The translations under genes and the position numbers were made by a program. The notes beneath the pieces are model-generated. The model was not told the DNA's origin, did no database searches, and was given only the letters and a program-made list of their open reading frames with translations. From contig NC_049979.1 in assembly GCF_000003815.2 (NCBI RefSeq), positions 21,220,773-21,284,772 of the forward strand: a DNA stretch of 64,000 bases, read 5' to 3'. Below, piece after piece: positions 45,134-56,725 of the stretch; position 1 is the first letter of the stretch; the number at the start of each line of letters is the position of its first letter. The DNA comes from Branchiostoma floridae. Taxonomy: Eukaryota; Chordata; Leptocardii; Amphioxiformes; Branchiostomatidae.

Positions 45134-48100
45134 ATGTCATCGTTGCTCTCGGCGTCATGTCTACCGGCGCTCCCGCGGAGGCTGGCACCGCTGATCGGCA
45201 CCGTGTTCCGCAGCTCATCCTCACAGAAGCAGCCCGTGGACCTACCGGACTTCAACACGGATGTAGACGTGCACACCCACCGCCTGAAGCGGCCCGAGCG
45301 CCCGCCGCCCTCCCCAGCACGTCGGTGGGTCGGACTGGAGGGTCTTCGTGAGAGGACCGAGGTAAACAAATTACAAAACATGGGTCAAAGCGACGATTTA
45401 ATCTCGTTTTATGAACAATAAGATGAAAACGGTGAAAGAAGAGGACGCAAATAAGATACCGATAGGAAATTGCAGCTATTTTTGTTTGATCTCAAGATAA
45501 TATAATCTTAAATTCTAAGTGCTTTCACTGTAAAACTATTAAAAAGTCACTAATAAAGTCACCCTCGATTAAGCCACATATTCTATAATGTGACCTAGTT
45601 TAGGTCCGGGCTATGATCAGGTTACAGGACACGGTTCCAGATGGTGTTGTGAAGTTGTGTTGACATTTAACACAGGTCAATCATAATGCTACTTGGAACC
45701 AACTTGCTGACCAACCATCACGTGAGCACTGTAAGTCAATGATTAACAGCATTACACACTTAAATATAGTGTATAATCTGTTTTGGCAACGCGTCAAGGG
45801 TGGAGCATGTTTACATTTTGCTTCCTGCTACTAGTACTAGTGCTAGCAAATTAATCTATTCTGCATGTGGTGACTTGTTGCAAGGTACAGAAAAGAGCAT
45901 GTGGTGTAAAATGCAATATTTCCTTTTTCTTTTCCAAATTTTTTTGCACCTTTTTTCTGTTACTTCAGTAAGGCCAAGTTGATTTGATATACCTGTATGG
46001 ATGACATTTTCTGGGAACACCAAAATGATGCCAGTGTGGGGAGACAAAAAAAGTTTGGCATTGAAAAAAAAGTTTCTTTCAAGTGGTCAGGGAGGTTGAA
46101 TAAATGACTTAACACACAATATCATATTATGATACATGTAAGTTCAAAAAAATGTTTTTACATATTTTCTTCTTTGACCTTTGAATCCACTACGACCTTC
46201 CTATCCAATCCCATATATTTGCTCTTTGTACTAATTTGTTGCCAGCTGCTTTGTACGATTTAGAGTCTTTGAAAAGGTTGAAAATTGATGCGTGCATGGA
46301 TGTCATCCATATAATCAATTCAACATGGCCTAATGTATGATCAAAAGTTTTTCTCTCTCCATTTCTATACAAATTCCTGGACAAATAGTTGAAAGTGCCC
46401 TTGATGCCCATGTACTACATGTACACATGACTGTAATGGCATGTTTGATCAGACTTATCATCACTGTTTGCAGGGGTCCCTGATTCCAGACACACTACAG
46501 GAGATGGAGAAGGATGAACAGTTTAAGATCACAGCAGAGAACCTGAGGAAACTGGGTCAGGTCAAACTCACCAGAGAGGAGAGGAAGAAAAGACAGAGGG
46601 CGCTGAGGAAGCTCGGGATTCCCAACTTCCGGGAGTTCTTACTGAAAAACCTGAAGGAGAATCCACAGGAGGGATTGGAAGGTAGGTATAGAAAGTTGAA
46701 ACAAGTTCAACACCGAAATTTCCGTTGTGCAATTCAGTCCAGAATACTCTGGAATTGAATTACATGTAAATCTTTCTTCAACCGAATTATATTTTGGTCC
46801 TTATCCCTTGACCATGGGCAGATAGTTGCTGATAATTGGAAAAGGCATGTATACGTTATGGATGACATCCCTTGCAGACTGCAGAAATAATAAGTCTACC
46901 TTATCAGAAAGAATTTTTTTTTCTGAAATCAGGCAAAAATTAATGAACATGCAGATGTCATCCTTAAAATGTACTTGCTGTGGCCCAATTCTAACTCAAA
47001 CTACTGCTAAGGATATAGACGCTTCTGTTGCATGAATGTTTTATGGTTTTTCATAAATGCTAAGTGTTGTTTTTACCATTCAATCTACTGTAAATTGGTT
47101 CATGTTTCTAATTTTGCTTTAGGGGGCATTTGTGGCATTTAGGTTTTCCAATAAAGGAGCTGTAGAAGTGCAGACAGGTGTGAGCTCTATGAATATTAAA
47201 AAACACCACATACAAAACACAAATAGAACTTGACAATTTCACCATTGTCTTTTACAGTAATTGTGACAGTGTTGTAATTTGAACTGACTGAACTGTTTTG
47301 GTCTTTAACAGATAAGCACCAGTCCCTGAAGAAACAGCCCATTGAGATTCTGCAGCTGAACATCGGGCTGTACTGTAACCAGGCCTGTAACCACTGCCAT
47401 GTGGAGTCCTCACCCAAGAGGACGGAGATGATGAGTCGTGAAGTGGCCGACAAGTGTCTGGAGATCCTGGCCACGAGTCCCTCTATCCACACACTGGATA
47501 TCACAGGTACTGCTTAGGAAGCAAGAAATGCTTTTGAAAAAAGCTGGCCACGCAAGTTAAGATCAGATCTGGTAAGGTGCCGGACCCGGTAAGCTGCCGG
47601 ACATGGTAAGGTGCCGGACCCGGTAAGCTGCTGGACACGGTAAGCTGCCGGACACGGTAAGCTGCCGGACATGGTAAGGTGCCGGACCCGGTAAGCTGCC
47701 GGACCCAGTAAGGTGCCGGACATGGTAAGCTGCCGGACATGGTAAGCTGCCGGAACCGGTAAGGTGCCGGATATGGTAAAGTGCCGGACCTGTTAAGCTG
47801 CCGGATCCGGTAAGGTGCCGGACATGGTAAGCTGCCGGACCCGGTAAGGTGCCGGACCCGGTAAGCTGCCGGACACGGTAAGCTGCCGGACCCGGTAAGG
47901 TGCCGGACCCAGTAAGCTGCCGGACCCGGTAAGATGCCGGACCCAGTAAGCTGCCGGACCCGGAAAGCTGCCGGACACGGTAAGCTGCCGGACCCGGTAA
48001 GGTGCCGGACCCGGTAAGCTGCCGGACACGGTAAGCTGCCGGACACTGTAAGCTGCCGGATATGTTAAGACCTTAGCTTAACCAAGCATACAGGGATTTA

Positions 48101-51100
48101 ACTTGGATTTATTAAAGGTGGCAAGACGTGTAGATATAGAAAAACAAACTAAAATCAAATTGCTTAAACAGTTTTCGACATAAACAAATATTTTGTTGAT
48201 ATATTCTGAAGTGAATTAAGCAGTATTTGAAGCAATGTGGCAGTGTTTTTGTCCTAATATTTATAAGAATATCTGTCATAAGCATTTTTGACCCAATATC
48301 AGTTGAGTCCTTACCAACAATATTTTCCCCATTCATGTCATTGCCAGGAGGGGCCCCAGAGCTGAACCCGCAGTTCCGTTACCTGGCAGCAGGGGGCAGT
48401 GCTCTGGGTAAGAAGGTCCTGGACAGATGTAACCTTACAGTGCTGCTGGAGCCTGGACAGGAGGACCTGCCTGACTTCCTAACCCAGCACCGTGTCAGTG
48501 TGGTGGCTTCTCTACCCTGCTATAGGTACATCTCATTCTCTATTGATATCGAAATTTATGAAAATTCCAAAAGATGAACAAGCAAAAAGTACTTTTATAG
48601 ATTTTCAACTTTCTTTTAGCTACAAAATGTCATTGTCGCAGATATATAGACCTAGAACTCAAATCTCATGCAAATGTGTTACCTTCTCTCAATAAGCAAC
48701 TTTCCAAATTCTTAGCCTAGGGCTTAATATTTTAACCAAAACAATTTCAAAAGACCATAATTCGAAAACCTGATTAAAAATATGTCAAGTTAGGGACAAA
48801 CTTGTGCATTGAGTACTAGTGTCTACTTTCTGGGCTATCGATGTGTGAAGCATGTCATACTTCCTAATGGCAGCACATTTTTTTATCACTTGTTAAAGAT
48901 AGATCGCACTGGAAGCGGAACTTTGTTAATGCTTCAACTCGATAGAGTATGGATTTGTATATAAATATTATGTACATGTATGTATTTATGTAAAGAGCCA
49001 ACATTACAGCCTTCTGTTCTTCTCTGCAGTGCGAAGAATGTGAACATGCAGCGCGGGAAGGGGGTGTTTGACAAGAGTATCCAGGCCCTGCTTCTGTTGA
49101 ATGAGCGAGGGTACGGGAAACCTGGCACGGGTCTGGAACTGGACCTGGTCTACAACCCTCTGGGTAAGTTTAACCCTTGCCTGCCAACTTCTGTTCATAC
49201 TGCTACAAGGAAAATTGCACTGAGTTTGTAGGAGGTCAAATGCCAGTGTGTAATATCAGCTTCCTAAAATATACAGCATGGTGTTTGATCCTCTATTCTA
49301 ACCAACAACTTTCGTACTGCCTAAATGTTATATCATGGATGTTTAAACTGAATGTATTATTTGAAGTAGTGTTTATGTATACATGCATTATTGCAGATAT
49401 GTAAAAGCTATTCCAATGACCTACAGAATTTTAGACTGTCAAGTTGGGATTTTATGTTGGACCATGGCAGACTATCATCAAAATGGTGAATGCTAACTGT
49501 CTCAAGCTGTCTCACATGGTTTTATTTTTTGATGATGGAATATTCTAAGTGACTATGACTACAGTGACGATGGAATACTTTACAACAATTGTATGAAAAA
49601 TGATTTTGGGCTGCAAGGCTGCCAGTTTTATGCAAATATCAAGAATGAATTCACTCACTCATTTCCACAGGAGGCTTCCTCCCCCCTCCACAGCGCGAGC
49701 TTGAGGACAAGTATCGTCAGGAATTGTGGGATACCTTCGGGATTGAGTTCAACAAACTGTACACGGTCACCAACATGCCAATCAAGAGGTTTGCTGACTT
49801 TCTATACAGAAGGTCAGTAGAGGAAATAACAACTATTTTTCCAGGTTCAAAGACAATTAAAAATATATTGTTTGGGTATAAAGTGTGTTTAAGTGCTTCC
49901 AACGCCATGCTGTGTATTGGGCGGTGCCCATCCCCATTTCTATAACCCTTGGGCCACAGCTGTGCACTACAGCAAGAGGCCAGTCCATTGTTAGTGTTCA
50001 GTGTTTGTGATTCTAGAGAGGTTTTAGATACTTGGAATGACAGGCACAACTTGATGATACCAGCAGCTTTAAGGACAGAATTGTAGCCGGAAATATCTTT
50101 CCTTATACGTCGACGTAGGTTAGACATCCAGGTAATAAGATACGCCAAAAATAGTTACTCAAGCAACTGGATATGGTTTTGGAAACGGTTTTGGAAAGTG
50201 TCACTGACAAAAACTGGTCGATTCCAGTTGAAACGTCTGACTATCTTTCTGAAACTAATATCCGCCCAGAGTAATAGTACAGATTGGACATTGTACTAGT
50301 ACAGACAGGGCATTGAACCCTCAGAGAGATAACGGTTAAGGAGTACTGTATGCATATTATGACAGCATGGTTTAGGATTGCAGTATGCATACGACAGTAG
50401 CAGTCTACAAAAATGATTATTGCATGATAGCAAAGACATCAGAGTAAATTTTTTAGACAATTTGGCTAACCCTCAATGACTTCAGATTCCAAATAAGTAT
50501 CTTTTTGAAGAGGTCTATTTTCAGACTGTGATATTTATTTGAGCTTTTGATAAATCTGTCCACATTTTAGGAATGAACTTCAGGACTACATGAACCTGTT
50601 AGTGCGGAACTTCAACCCCATGTCAGTGAAGGGCCTGATGTGTCGTAACCTCCTGAGTGTGAACTGGGACGGACGGGTGTACGACTGCGACTTTAACCAG
50701 CAGCTGGATCTGGCTATTCCCAGGACGAGGCTAGGTAAGGATGCATAGCGACATACAAGACACTCAAAGATTCACCAAGAAGATTATTGCTATAGGTGCC
50801 ACTTGTGTGTGTGTGTGTGTTTATGGACAGTATGTAACCCGAAAAATTGTGGACATATCTTTTATGATATTTGTTAGGTGTGTAGGCAAAAGAAAAAGGT
50901 ATGTATGTCAGGGGTACATAAAATTCAGGTTAAGGTCCAGAGGATCAGGTGATTGTAAAAACCTGTGAATGGGGGTTACTGAAAACAATGGTCCATTTTG
51001 CAATATAGGAATCTGAGTATCCACTTCCACTGGCGTTTTAAAATCCTGTCTGCATATAAATAACGTTAAATGCCTCAATCTAAAGAGGACTATGAACTCT

Positions 51101-51466
51101 CCTCTTCTTCGCTAATTACTTTCTTGGACCTGTAAGTGCCAAAACGTGTTTCTAATTGGTTCAAAGTCTGGTCTACTGATTTTATTCGGACCAATCCAAC
51201 CCATATCAATGATGAAATGCAACACTTAAAATGAATGAAACAATCTATGACACTTAGATCTTTTCATTCTTGTAGGTTTATCTGCAAAGCAGCCAGCTAA
51301 AGAAGAACCTCCTACTGTACACCCTGACCTGAAGTTTAAGGGACTGTCAGTTTGGGACATCGCAAGCACAGACGACCTCTTGGGGTCAAGGGTCGCAACG
51401 GACAACCACTGCTACGGCTGTACGGCAGGGATGGGGTCCAGCTGACAGGGGAGCACCGTCTCCTAG
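45134..51466 (+). CDS. ArsS-like radical SAM protein, probable selenoprotein (UGA at codon 473)
   Basis: Eight exons: 45134-45361, 46474-46681, 47312-47506, 48348-48525, 49030-49163, 49671-49812, 50571-50734 and 51276-51466. Phases agree throughout. The product is 479 aa if TGA 51443-51445 is decoded, ending at TAG 51464-51466. The radical SAM cluster motif is C167-N-Q-A-C171-N-H-C174, followed by HVESSPKRTEMMS, then the ITGGAPEL SAM-contacting strand, YNPLGGFLPPPQ, MCRNLLSVNWDGRVYDCDFNQ and C462-Y-G-C465-T-A-G-M-G-S-S. This is the layout of bacterial ArsS, the radical SAM enzyme linked to arsenosugar synthesis. Bacterial proteins continue SSCQG; here the Cys codon is TGA, followed by CAG GGG (Gln-Gly). 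The N-terminal 145 residues are an extension: residues 1-35 are Ser/Arg/Leu-rich with no acidic residue, like a mitochondrial presequence. The start at 45134 has a good Kozak context (gcgaccATGt). The substrate in animals is unknown. Confidence 0.88.
47571..48068. repeat. 17-bp minisatellite, about 29 units, each with a GGTAAG word
   Basis: Units read GGTAAGCTGCCGGACAC with variants (ggtaaggtgccggaccc and similar). The array starts 65 nt after the donor of exon 3 of the radical SAM gene and fills the first half of its third intron. Since 17 is not a multiple of 3, all minus-strand frames stay open and give a long Pro/Leu-rich false ORF. Confidence 0.95.
50105..50260. mobile_element. Penelope-like terminal fragment in intron 6 of the radical SAM gene
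   Basis: It contains ggttagacatccaggtaa, the caactggatatggttttgg word of the 12881 hairpin, and CTGACAA-AACTGG ... CCAGTT-GAAACGTC, a degenerate hammerhead-like motif with a six-base stem. Confidence 0.55.
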
Positions 51467-52647
51467 AGGGGACGCAACATTTATCTTTCCAGGGGCTGTA
51501 ACTTCTTAGAGCAAGGATACATTCACCAACCATTTTTGGCATTGCCTCAGGGGTGGCCTTGACATCAGTGTTAGCATGATGTATTCTTTTGGAAGGGGAA
51601 TGTATTTTTGCTCAATGTACCTTTGACCCAGGGATGACATGTCTTTCTTAAACTTCTACTAGGAGGATAGATATTGATAGTTGGGTCAAGGTTAAGGGAG
51701 TTCCTCTGGAGATGTAAAGCGAGAAAGTAATAAGATGGTTAAAGGTTGATGTACTGTCATTCTGTTATTTTTGCGGATTCTCAGTACATGTATTTGAGTG
51801 TTAACTGAAGGTATTATATCCAATGAGAAATTGTACTGTACTAATGGAACAGATGTTTTGAAACATTATTGTACCTGTTAATTTGAATACAGATTGACTG
51901 ATTGAAAAAAAGAAACCTACTCTATCACATGTTGGAGTATCTTGTTGACAAGCTGTTGCGGTTGTGTAACATGAGAACATCTGAATGATAGATTTACATT
52001 TTGTAAGTGTTTTTGAGTGCAGTAGATGTAATGACCATTTGATGGAAGTATCGAAAAGGAAAGTTACTGTAATGTTAATTGAACAGTGTTAGAACATTCT
52101 GTTTATATTTTACTGCTCGCTTAGCTTACATATGTTGAATTTACTAAAAGTGATGATTTAAAAAGGGCCAAGTTTTGTGGACATCCAAAATAAGAGAGAA
52201 TGATGAATTGTACAATTTTTTTTATTATGTCTTTTTAGTGAAGTCTCTGCTTGTATCTTGTACTTTACACAAAGAATGATAATTATAATTTATAACCTTA
52301 CCAACAGATGGTTTATTCTCAGTGCCAAAATAATATTCATTATAACATTACTGTAAATGTGGGTAGGTATGTCTTGGTATTTCATAGATGTTGTGCATTG
52401 ATTTGTGGTATTGGTATGTTCCTCAAAGTTTTGTCTTTTCATTAATAGTGCAATATTAAAACCTTACCAAGTCCTATATTTCAGTTGATTTTATATCAGA
52501 TATGTACAATTTGTCTCAAGCATTGTTTTTGTATGAACCCTTTACAACTTTGCAATAAAAGCAATTAAAGCCATTTTTAAAACAAAAAGTCTCAAGAATC
52601 ATGCTGCTATATTTATAGTTCATAATGCCTGCCTAATTTTTTCGTCA
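51467..52647 (+). other. 3' UTR of the radical SAM gene, convergent with RDH13-like gene
   Basis: The SECIS is inside this stretch. The first convincing + strand polyadenylation signal is AATAAA at 52554-52559, which gives a 3' UTR of about 1.1 kb, long but normal for a selenoprotein. The minus-strand gene's stop is at 52648, so its own 3' UTR must enter this region. On the minus strand AATAAA words lie near 52311 and 52220. Confidence 0.6.
51619..51692 (+). promoter_or_regulatory. SECIS element in the 3' UTR of the radical SAM gene
   Basis: Helix I pairs ACCTTTGACCCA (51619-51630) with TTGGGTCAAGGT (51681-51692), one base bulged. The quartet is ATGA at 51634-51637 opposite TGAT at 51675-51678. 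Helix II pairs ATGTCTTTCTT (51639-51649) with AGGATAGATAT (51664-51674), with one T-T mismatch and GU pairs. The apical loop opens with AAA at 51650-51652, 12 nt after the quartet, which is the spacing expected for eukaryotic SECIS elements. The hairpin lies 153 nt after the final stop. It was found by eye; no folding energy was computed. Confidence 0.82.
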
Positions 52648-55600
52648 TCATGATGCTTTCTCCTCTTTGCTTTGGTCATTTCTAGAAAAATCTTCCGTCA
52701 GTCCTGTCATCTCAAGACTTAGGTCCCAGAGTTTCTTGGCCACGTCTTCATCCCTGCCTGGTGGGGCGGGGTCATGTGCAACTGTGTCCCTAGAACAAAA
52801 GATGTCCCCATCCAATTTTCAACGTCTTAAATGTTTGAAGATACATTTCGAGTATTCTACAACAGATAAGTACAAGACAACACAACAGGATTTCCTGTAC
52901 TGTGGGTAAAATGTATATCATTTCCAAGTAACAATGTTGACAACTGATGAATGAAAACCCCCACCTGAAAACATGCTGATTTTTTTAAACAAATAGAAAA
53001 GTATTGCAATTCAGACAGCAGTAAAGAATGTAATATTTGGGGGATGTTTATAAATTATGAAGCATTTTAACCATGTTTTCAAGAAGCCTTATAGTGTTGA
53101 ATCAGCAATAATGATGAAACCTTTTATGATCACAATGTGAAAACCACATGCACTTCACAGCAAAAAAAGTTTAACTTTGGCTGTCTTGTTAACTACATGG
53201 ATTGTAAAGCAACCATTCAAAACAATACTATAAAAAAGGTTGAAGCCCTGGGGCATTGCCAAAAAATACAAGACTTACTTCCAGTATTTTCCTGTCTTGT
53301 CAGCCACCTCAGGAGCGACAGACAAATACACGCCGGTCTGGGCCGCTCGTTTTGGCTCTCGTAGTGTGAACCACATAAAGGGTTTGGTCATTATGGACTG
53401 AGCCTTGGTGAGTCGGTGCTGACCTATGTTGGTTTTTGTTACACCGGGGTACACCGTGTTTGCTGTGACACTGGTACCTATGAAAAAAAAAATACCATGG
53501 CATAAGTAAAATACATATACCAAATTAAGACGCTTGAGTTAGAACTCTGTTGGGAGTCGAGCCAGAGGGAGGCCAAAGTTGAGGTACAAGGACATACGCA
53601 ATGCTACTTCTCCATCTGTGCAAAGAATTGGGAAAGTATAGCATCAGACAGGGAAAGATGGACAGCAACAGTGCACACTGCTATGGAGCAGTATAGGTCT
53701 GCTCGTAAGAAGCGGGTCTTGAAAGCTAGACGAAGAAAGGAATGAACACTGGTGAAATGCTCAGAGGGCTGCACATTCTGCAGAAGAGTGCCATCCAAAA
53801 ATTGAACTCATAAGTCACAAGAGGAAATGTCAGGCCAGGATTACAACAACTTGAACAAGTTACCATATACAGTAACCGGCCGATGCTGCAGAAACAATGA
53901 CTGAAAATGTAAACTGTCTCTTGAGATGAAAAGAGCCGAGGAAGAATTAGAAAAATATTAAGATAATGCTGTCTAGGAAACATAGTCCAGTTCAGCCTCA
54001 GAGTTAAAAGTCAGGTTCTAGGGGCTGCAACTATGGATTCTACAAACGCAGATGAGTTTTCATTTGAATTTCAGACTTCATGTCCCTTGCTAGTGGTCAG
54101 CCCCTATAAGAAAGGTTACAGTTGGCACATTTTTGCTAGTGTCAGTTGAGTAACTAGAAATGCAACATTATTTCCTAGGCATAATAAACATATCTAACTT
54201 CGTCTAGTTCCTTCCTACCTTCCAGCCTCTTGCTCAACTCCAGCGTAAACAAGACCAGGGCCAGTTTGCTCTGCATGTACGCTTCCACGTCCTCGTACTT
54301 CAGTAAAGAGTTGATGTCATCGAAATTGATGTTGCCTTGTGCATGTGCTATGGAGGATGTGTTGATGATTCTCCCTTGCTCAGCAGCTTTCAGCTTGTCC
54401 ATTAACAAGTTGGTAAGTAAAAAATGACCTGCAAATATAACAAGAGTACATGACATAGTGTTAGTTATGGCTAACACTATAACATACTCTAATCCACTTG
54501 TTTGAAATAAGCATACTAAGTCTTATATTGTTTTCTTGACAAAGGAACATAAGAAAGGATAAAAGGAACGGGAAGAGGCACTTAAAAGGTAAAGTGTAGA
54601 AACCAATAGCTGAAGGTAAAAAAAACAACTAACCATAAAGTAGCATGCAGATGATTAACTTTAAAAGACAGATACACATACTAGTATATAACATACAAAG
54701 TTACTTCATCATTCACAGTCAACATTTTCCATACTTAGATAGTTGACTTGGAATTGCCACTCGTTGCCATCGGCGGTCTTCCAGTGTGGACAACGCATCA
54801 CCCCCGCATTGTTAATGAGCACATCCACCTTCGGTTCACCTACAGAATCATAACATCAAAATGAAAAAAAAAAGGCTTTGCAAATTGTCATGGTTGCTTC
54901 AATTACCAAGAAAAATATCCAAAAGTCAATTTTTTTCACAAACCCTATTGTTAATAGCCATTTTTCTCCTTCAATATAGAAAAATCTTTATTCAACCTTC
55001 TCCTTGTGCTACTAAGATACTCTTTCTGGTGATGGGAAAGTCAGGAACAGAAAGTTAAACATTAACCATATCATGGTAAAAACGATAACATATAGAACAT
55101 CAATAGGTTGTGAAATAGCCACTAACTTTTGTTTATTCTGCTAGCAAACTTCCGTATGGATTCGAAGGAGGCGAGATCCACTTGTTGACAGTGGACATCC
55201 TGGTTTCCTGTCTCCTGCACAAGTTGGTCACGCGCCTCCTGGCACTTGTTCATGTTCCTGCAGGCCATGATGACACGACCCCCTGTACAGTACACAACAA
55301 CATATACAGGTTTTAGGTTATGGTCATTTGTGATAAGAGGGCAAGAAATACACATTGTACAATATGCTGGAAGAGGGGATCCTGTTAATTCTATAAAACT
55401 TACTCCGAAGACAGTTTTTCTTCTAGCAGCTTATTGCGTAATATGCATTCAATCCTATCAGTGCCAAGGTCGTCTCAAGATATACCAGTATATAACACAT
55501 CTTAGGTTTTTAGCTAGTATTTTATCATAGAAAAGCCTGACAAATCTACTAGTAGCTAAAAGCCTGACACATCTGTCTGGGCACCAAAAGATATACATGT

Positions 55601-56725
55601 AAAATATTATTTGCCAAACAATCTAAATGACACTTGGACACATGTCTGGCTAAAAGCCTGACACACGATCTTAGTATCTGGCCTCCAAAATATATAATTT
55701 GCAAACAAAGGAGTTCCAGAAAACTACAGCAGATATTTTTAGATCAAAATGATTTCTAGAAGAAAAAAATTATGAAACTGAGGTCAGGAAGACGATTATA
55801 TGTTCCATACAATACCTCTTTTTGACAGCTCTTTTGCTGTTTCTTTGCCTATCCCACTGTTGGCACCTGTAATGATGACTGTCTTTCCTTCCATGGTAGC
55901 CTTGCTGGGACATCTTTCACCCTGTATGTAATCTCTGAAACGTTACAGAAACAATGTTTAACTTTACACATGTGCAGAGACACAGACACACATACAGATG
56001 CAAAACCAAGAAAAAAAATAAAAGAACACACATACTAGTAGTGGGGCACAAAAAGACATACACACATGTAAACACACACACACACAAACACTGGGTTTGC
56101 TATGTATTACATTGTCTGCAAGTTCAATAAATCTAGAACAGATATGCACATTCACAGATGTAGGCTAATAACACCTAAAGATAAACACAAGATGACAATG
56201 GCAATAAAAGGAAAGGGCACAAGCAGAGAATGAAAGATACAAAGAGACTTCAATGTCAACGTCAAAACAAATTACACAAATTATACACAGTTTCATCACG
56301 TGGCACGGTGCACACCTTTGACCTTCAGATTATTTTAAAGTCAAAGAAATAGCTTCCGGTTTCGTAAACCCCGTGAAAAAGTCAGAAAGAATTTTATCTG
56401 TCATTCATTTAATTTGTATTTTCCACTTATTCTGACGCAATAAGTTGATAAAACTGCCAAATATCTGTTGTTTTAAGAAAGAACATTATAGTGGACATAT
56501 ACGATTTGCAGCAGACCACATTTTGCCCCCCTCCCCCTTACGCAATGCACGATTTCATAATCAATAATCATCAATCTCTATGTTAAACCAGACTGGAAAG
56601 CGACGAGTATTTCATCGTCCACAGAAATATAAATCGTGAGTTCCTTACCTGAATAGGAGGATGAGTCCGGTGGTCGCACCGGCGGCAGATAGAGGGTACC
56701 ACAGTCGCGGAAAAATATCGGCCAT
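52648..56725 (-). CDS. RDH13: RDH13-like short-chain dehydrogenase/reductase, complete seven-exon gene
   Basis: Minus-strand exons: 56649-56725, 55816-55934, 55127-55282, 54735-54839, 54219-54428, 53279-53477 and 52648-52789. Phases agree and the product is 335 aa, close to vertebrate RDH13 (331). Residues 1-25 ([20 protein letters not shown]...) form a membrane anchor, and [13 protein letters not shown] is the conserved linker. The Rossmann site is T48-G-A-N-S-G-I-G55, NNAG is at 127-130, the catalytic Ser is at 177/178, and the pair is Y203-M-Q-S-K207. [11 protein letters not shown] follows the active site and [11 protein letters not shown] closes the C-terminal region. Family members reduce retinal or other lipid aldehydes with NADPH; RDH13 is a mitochondrial inner-membrane protein. 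I infer the same here; RDH11/12/14 are the alternatives. The intron between exons 5 and 6 (53478-54218) contains nothing recognisable. Confidence 0.92.

Follow-up and report, generated by a model that had tools for sequence, protein, structure and literature searches.

A probable selenoprotein of the ArsS radical SAM family encoded in the lancelet Branchiostoma floridae

The locus described here raises the question of whether a TGA codon lying in frame in the last exon of a lancelet gene is a stop or a codon for selenocysteine (Sec). The window, which is the whole stretch of 64,000 nucleotides that was analyzed, contains a gene resembling those of the bacterial radical SAM enzyme ArsS, and a hairpin of the SECIS type follows it. 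As far as can be judged from sequence, this gene very probably encodes a selenoprotein. We consider it highly likely, more specifically, that it is a lancelet nuclear gene for an ArsS-type radical SAM selenoprotein in which UGA codon 473 is read as Sec by means of a SECIS element in the 3' UTR.

The gene has eight exons between 45134 and 51466 on the plus strand, and all seven introns have GT-AG ends. Joined, the exons make up 480 codons, the final TAG counted, and the TGA at codon 473 is the sole internal stop; the start codon at 45134 is a presumed one, chosen by us. Exon 1 (45134-45361, residues 1-76), which is without a Pfam match, and exon 2 (46474-46681) extend the N-terminus by about 145 residues beyond the family profile, and this stretch gave no Pfam match above the cut-off. 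By eye, the extreme N-terminus contains many arginines and no acidic residues, and the N-terminal residues are perhaps a mitochondrial targeting peptide. Exon 3 (47312-47506) encodes the radical SAM motif CX3CX2C (C167, C171 and C174), and exons 4 (48348-48525) and 5 (49030-49163) encode the radical SAM core. The DUF3641 region begins in exon 6 (49671-49812), and exon 7 (50571-50734) contains C386-X9-G-X4-C401. The coding part of exon 8 (51276-51466) contains C462, C465, the TGA proposed as a Sec codon (51443-51445) and, in the spliced frame, the final TAG (51464-51466); it ends NHCYGCTAGMGSS-TGA-QGSTVS-TAG, with an open frame of six codons between the two. Intron 3 contains a minisatellite (47571-48060; 28.8 copies of 17-base units), and the long minus-strand reading frames found there are not genes. 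Exons of a short-chain dehydrogenase lie nearby on the minus strand, at about 54175-55942; two of the four reading frames scanned matched PF00106, one of them above the cut-off.

An earlier note on this DNA had proposed an ArsS-like radical SAM gene, and the profile searches bear this out. With the TGA entered as Cys, the joined exons match TIGR04167 from exon 3 on with 423.1 bits against a cut-off of 300, and PF12345 (DUF3641), also from exon 3 on, with 172.5 bits against 24.9; the match to the Radical_SAM Pfam family, at 29.3 against 29.5, is just below its cut-off. A profile search of the 513-Mb genome gave six stretches, all belonging to one gene, and no second copy. For comparison with bacteria, the best 80 of 578 confirmed loci were taken and 37 of these were aligned. 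These 37 proteins share eight invariant Cys, the last within a C-terminal SSC[GSA]G stretch, and the lancelet protein keeps 69 of the 69 columns invariant among them when the TGA is counted as Cys. C167, C171, C174, C386, C401, C462 and C465 are thus the family cysteines that are kept, and position 473 is the TGA. In a tree of 100 rows the lancelet protein stands in an open, weakly supported fork (57/3), which points to no bacterial source. Plasmid relatives (54 records) lie outside the comparison of the TGA site, and a viral collection, which gave three partial relatives only, was set aside. When a profile built from the bacterial alignment was compared with solved structures, the matches were other radical SAM proteins only (best E 2e-9).

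Cyanobacterial ArsS takes a methylated arsenical, dimethylarsenite, as its substrate. By analogy, the lancelet enzyme would transfer the 5'-deoxyadenosyl moiety of SAM to such an arsenical, and arsenite methyltransferases of the same genome could supply this compound. SPASM/twitch domains have the motif CX9-15GX4C followed by CX2CX5CX3C. Comparison by eye places CX9GX4C at C386-C401 of the lancelet protein, and the second half reads CX2CX7 followed by the TGA, which leaves the motif incomplete. C386, C401, C462 and C465 may hold an auxiliary iron-sulfur cluster, the first pair with the CX9GX4C spacing of SPASM/twitch. Sec and Cys usually replace each other at residues with a redox or binding role, not at those that ligate a cluster, and for this reason we propose that Sec473 would be a mobile free selenolate, which might bind or reduce the As(III) arsenical or cycle with a Cys.

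Exon-wise searches of the genome gave 17 matches to the arsenite methyltransferase model NF008823, none above the whole-protein cut-off. Two multi-exon genes resemble arsenite methyltransferases (L089/L093 on C4 and L090/L091 on C12). At both sites the adjacent exons appear AS3MT-like by eye, and one exon on C4 has matches among arsenite methyltransferases of solved structure (7e-24). In Synechocystis, ArsM and ArsS act jointly, according to excerpts of PMC8552651, and excerpts of PMC12159101 cite a radical SAM enzyme that adenosylates arsenic. The arsenic activity of the lancelet protein is a prediction from homology alone. That it would be the first animal radical SAM selenoprotein to make adenosylated arsenicals, the precursors of arsenosugars, within the cells of the animal itself, Sec473 being the arsenic-binding or redox residue, is a proposal that we put forward tentatively and rate somewhat short of an even chance.

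The main competitor to this functional proposal, unlikely yet of real weight, is that the selenoprotein acts on another substrate, is no arsenosugar enzyme and uses Sec473 in that other reaction. Such a role would suit the extension of about 145 residues beyond the family match, the assignment of ArsS function by homology and the fact that ArsS is the function of only a few bacterial members of the family. The 69 of 69 invariant columns, a TIGR04167 score above the equivalog cut-off and the arsenite methyltransferase homologues of the genome argue against it and for the arsenical as substrate.

The reading of UGA 473 as Sec must be weighed against an ordinary stop, by which the last Cys would have been lost, the protein would end at Ser472 and the hairpin would be a chance resemblance. 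The standard code favors such a stop, which we nevertheless consider improbable. The earlier note had placed the TGA on a conserved C-terminal Cys, and alignment with bacterial ArsS agrees, since the TGA falls on an invariant Cys column. Among 140 bacterial loci with a long alignment, a set that holds at least one gene twice (L005 = L142), 134 reach position 473 and all 134 have Cys there; the remaining six were left out of the count because their alignment stops before it. The other 68 invariant columns are all kept in the lancelet protein, so the gene is under constraint, and the one residue lost with an ordinary stop would be an invariant Cys. The profile signal also persists in frame past the TGA. 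With exon 8 alone, reading through the TGA raises the score from 28.5 to 38.2 bits with TIGR04167 and from 30.9 to 40.9 bits with PF12345, a gain of about 10 bits on two profiles that is partly due to the Cys column itself. The Gly at the second position after this column, present in 133 of 133 bacterial loci, is retained in the lancelet frame. The bacterial sequence SSCQG, given in the earlier note as the counterpart of this site, was not recovered: in 79 loci the Cys is followed by GG 74 times, by SG four times and by AG once, and never by QG. The lancelet tail has six residues, and bacterial tails of four to six residues occur in 43 of the 79; this count covers 79 of the 80 loci, with L018 left out though it has the Cys. 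In the phylum to which L003 belongs, 118 of 282 genomes gave 120 family matches (115 reaching the C-terminus), and in that of L005, 66 of 396 genomes gave 67 (64 reaching it). None of these matches contains a stop, so a bacterial gene with TGA at this site was not found in those two phyla.

The second line of evidence is the hairpin. It matches the Rfam SECIS_1 model (RF00031) at 51625-51687 on the plus strand with 32.4 bits and covers all 64 model positions, and helix I extends the element to 51621-51691. The E value was 7.7e-4 for 3 kb and 4227 families; over the 64-kb window it was 0.016 with the same number of families, and this was the single SECIS_1 match there up to E 10. The covariance model thus supports the SECIS proposed earlier, though 2.6 bits under the Rfam gathering score of 35, a shortfall that speaks for an ordinary stop. 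ATGA (51634-51637), AAA (51650-51652, 12 nt after ATGA), TGAT (51675-51678) and the two helices were all located at the spacing that had been described. The hairpin had been placed 153 nt past the final stop; it is present there, but the distance needs correction, as helix I (11 bp, 51621-51631 paired with 51681-51691) starts 154 nt and the Rfam match 158 nt beyond that stop. The Rfam match begins 179 nt beyond the TGA. The element probably lies within the 3' UTR, because the first plus-strand AATAAA past the stop occurs only at 52554-52559; this possible poly(A) signal is a single six-base match, of a kind common by chance.

In a search of the 513-Mb genome with this single family, 32.7 bits corresponded to E 0.026 and 31.6 bits to E 0.052, so that by interpolation a score of 32.4 bits is expected by chance 0.03-0.05 times per genome. 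An ordinary stop would require such a chance match to lie just 179 nt beyond the TGA, which argues for a true SECIS. Folding lends the ordinary stop some support: the 201-nt region is no more stably folded than its shuffles, of which 50 in 200 did as well (z -0.58). A first, energy-based SECIS descriptor missed the element, whose inner hairpin has only -6.9 kcal/mol; it matched four other sites in the window, and random sequence totaling 1.92 Mb gave 28 sites. A descriptor based on pair counts (helix II with 9 of 10 pairs; helix I at -16.8 kcal/mol) picked out this site alone when both strands of the window were scanned, with two further sites on the minus strand at a looser setting. At the stricter setting it gave no match in two sets of random sequence of 6 Mb each, one composed like the window and the other like the 3' flank. 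Because this descriptor was fitted to the element itself, the result describes its rarity and is no independent test.

The genome-wide list of SECIS candidates consists of seven matches, obtained by scoring 150 of 11176 first-look candidates, and the element at 51625-51687 is absent from this list. Two of the seven (L100 and L101, 31.6 and 28.3 bits) adjoin deiodinase reading frames and are the only ones for which a selenoprotein gene was recognized. Both are very probably genuine elements, and yet they score below the 32.4 bits found here. In an alignment of eight elements, ATGA and the apical AA are common to all, and the model itself favors both. The top match of the list (L001, 1501-1562, minus strand) reached 49 bits, and no gene served by it was identified within 1.5 kb on either side. 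Another locus, L099, resembled the end of a glutathione peroxidase by eye but had no match in Pfam, and it was therefore left out as a control. For tRNA-Sec, four genome matches lie above the cut-off, among 12 with E up to 0.01, and the three that were scanned were all typed tca; four tRNA-Sec genes are given for B. floridae in excerpts of PMC5330540.

It is very improbable that a Cys-type gene shows TGA in place of TGT or TGC through an error in sequencing or assembly, or as a rare allele: a single base would be enough and the comparison rests on one assembly, but the SECIS would be left unexplained. With Sec as the preferred reading of codon 473, the hairpin at 51625-51687 would recruit the Sec-insertion machinery to the UGA, and translation would stop at the TAG six codons past Sec473.

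If this is true, a family is added to the animal selenoproteins, and a Sec site so far predicted in bacteria works under a eukaryotic SECIS. Selenium and arsenic chemistry would meet in a single enzyme of an animal. Should the proposed arsenic activity hold as well, marine animals would make some of their organoarsenicals themselves, besides obtaining them from the diet. The synthesis of arsenosugar precursors by a marine animal itself becomes testable. Annotation of the TGA as a stop loses both the Sec and the conserved C-terminus.

Among known systems, the nearest is bacterial. TIGR04167 (rSAM_SeCys/ArsS), which NCBIfam names a (seleno)protein family, is listed among predicted bacterial selenoproteins with the motif GxxU and the example AAR34688.1 in excerpts of PMC9312934 and PMC13188914. 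The lancelet gene belongs to the same family, and its GSSU at codon 473 fits the GxxU given in those excerpts; this motif alone is no proof of the same Sec site, because the first cluster Cys, too, stands in a GxxC. Unlike the bacterial genes, the lancelet gene has introns, a eukaryotic SECIS predicted in the 3' UTR and an N-terminal extension. The cyanobacterial pair SsArsS and SsArsM of Synechocystis, as described in the excerpts of PMC8552651, is of the same family by name, and the lancelet genome likewise has arsenite methyltransferase homologues; the bacterial loci compared carry Cys at the site, whereas the lancelet gene has TGA.

Within eukaryotes, the titles and abstract beginnings listed in searches of the open-access literature yielded no report of an animal ArsS selenoprotein. 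The selenoproteome of B. floridae (PMC3473315) has 21 families in its Table 1, none of them radical SAM, and the word 'radical' is absent from the available text; the same insertion system is seen here in the tRNA-Sec and SECIS matches, two of the latter beside deiodinases. Excerpts of an algal survey (PMC7539508) name 'FeS oxidoreductase' and 'FeS reductase' selenoproteins, which are likewise eukaryotic iron-sulfur selenoproteins and are likened to the lancelet protein by name alone. These algal FeS families may already include a eukaryotic relative. Selenocysteine-containing ArsS is known from bacterial prediction, and an animal gene of this kind with a eukaryotic SECIS seems to be new.
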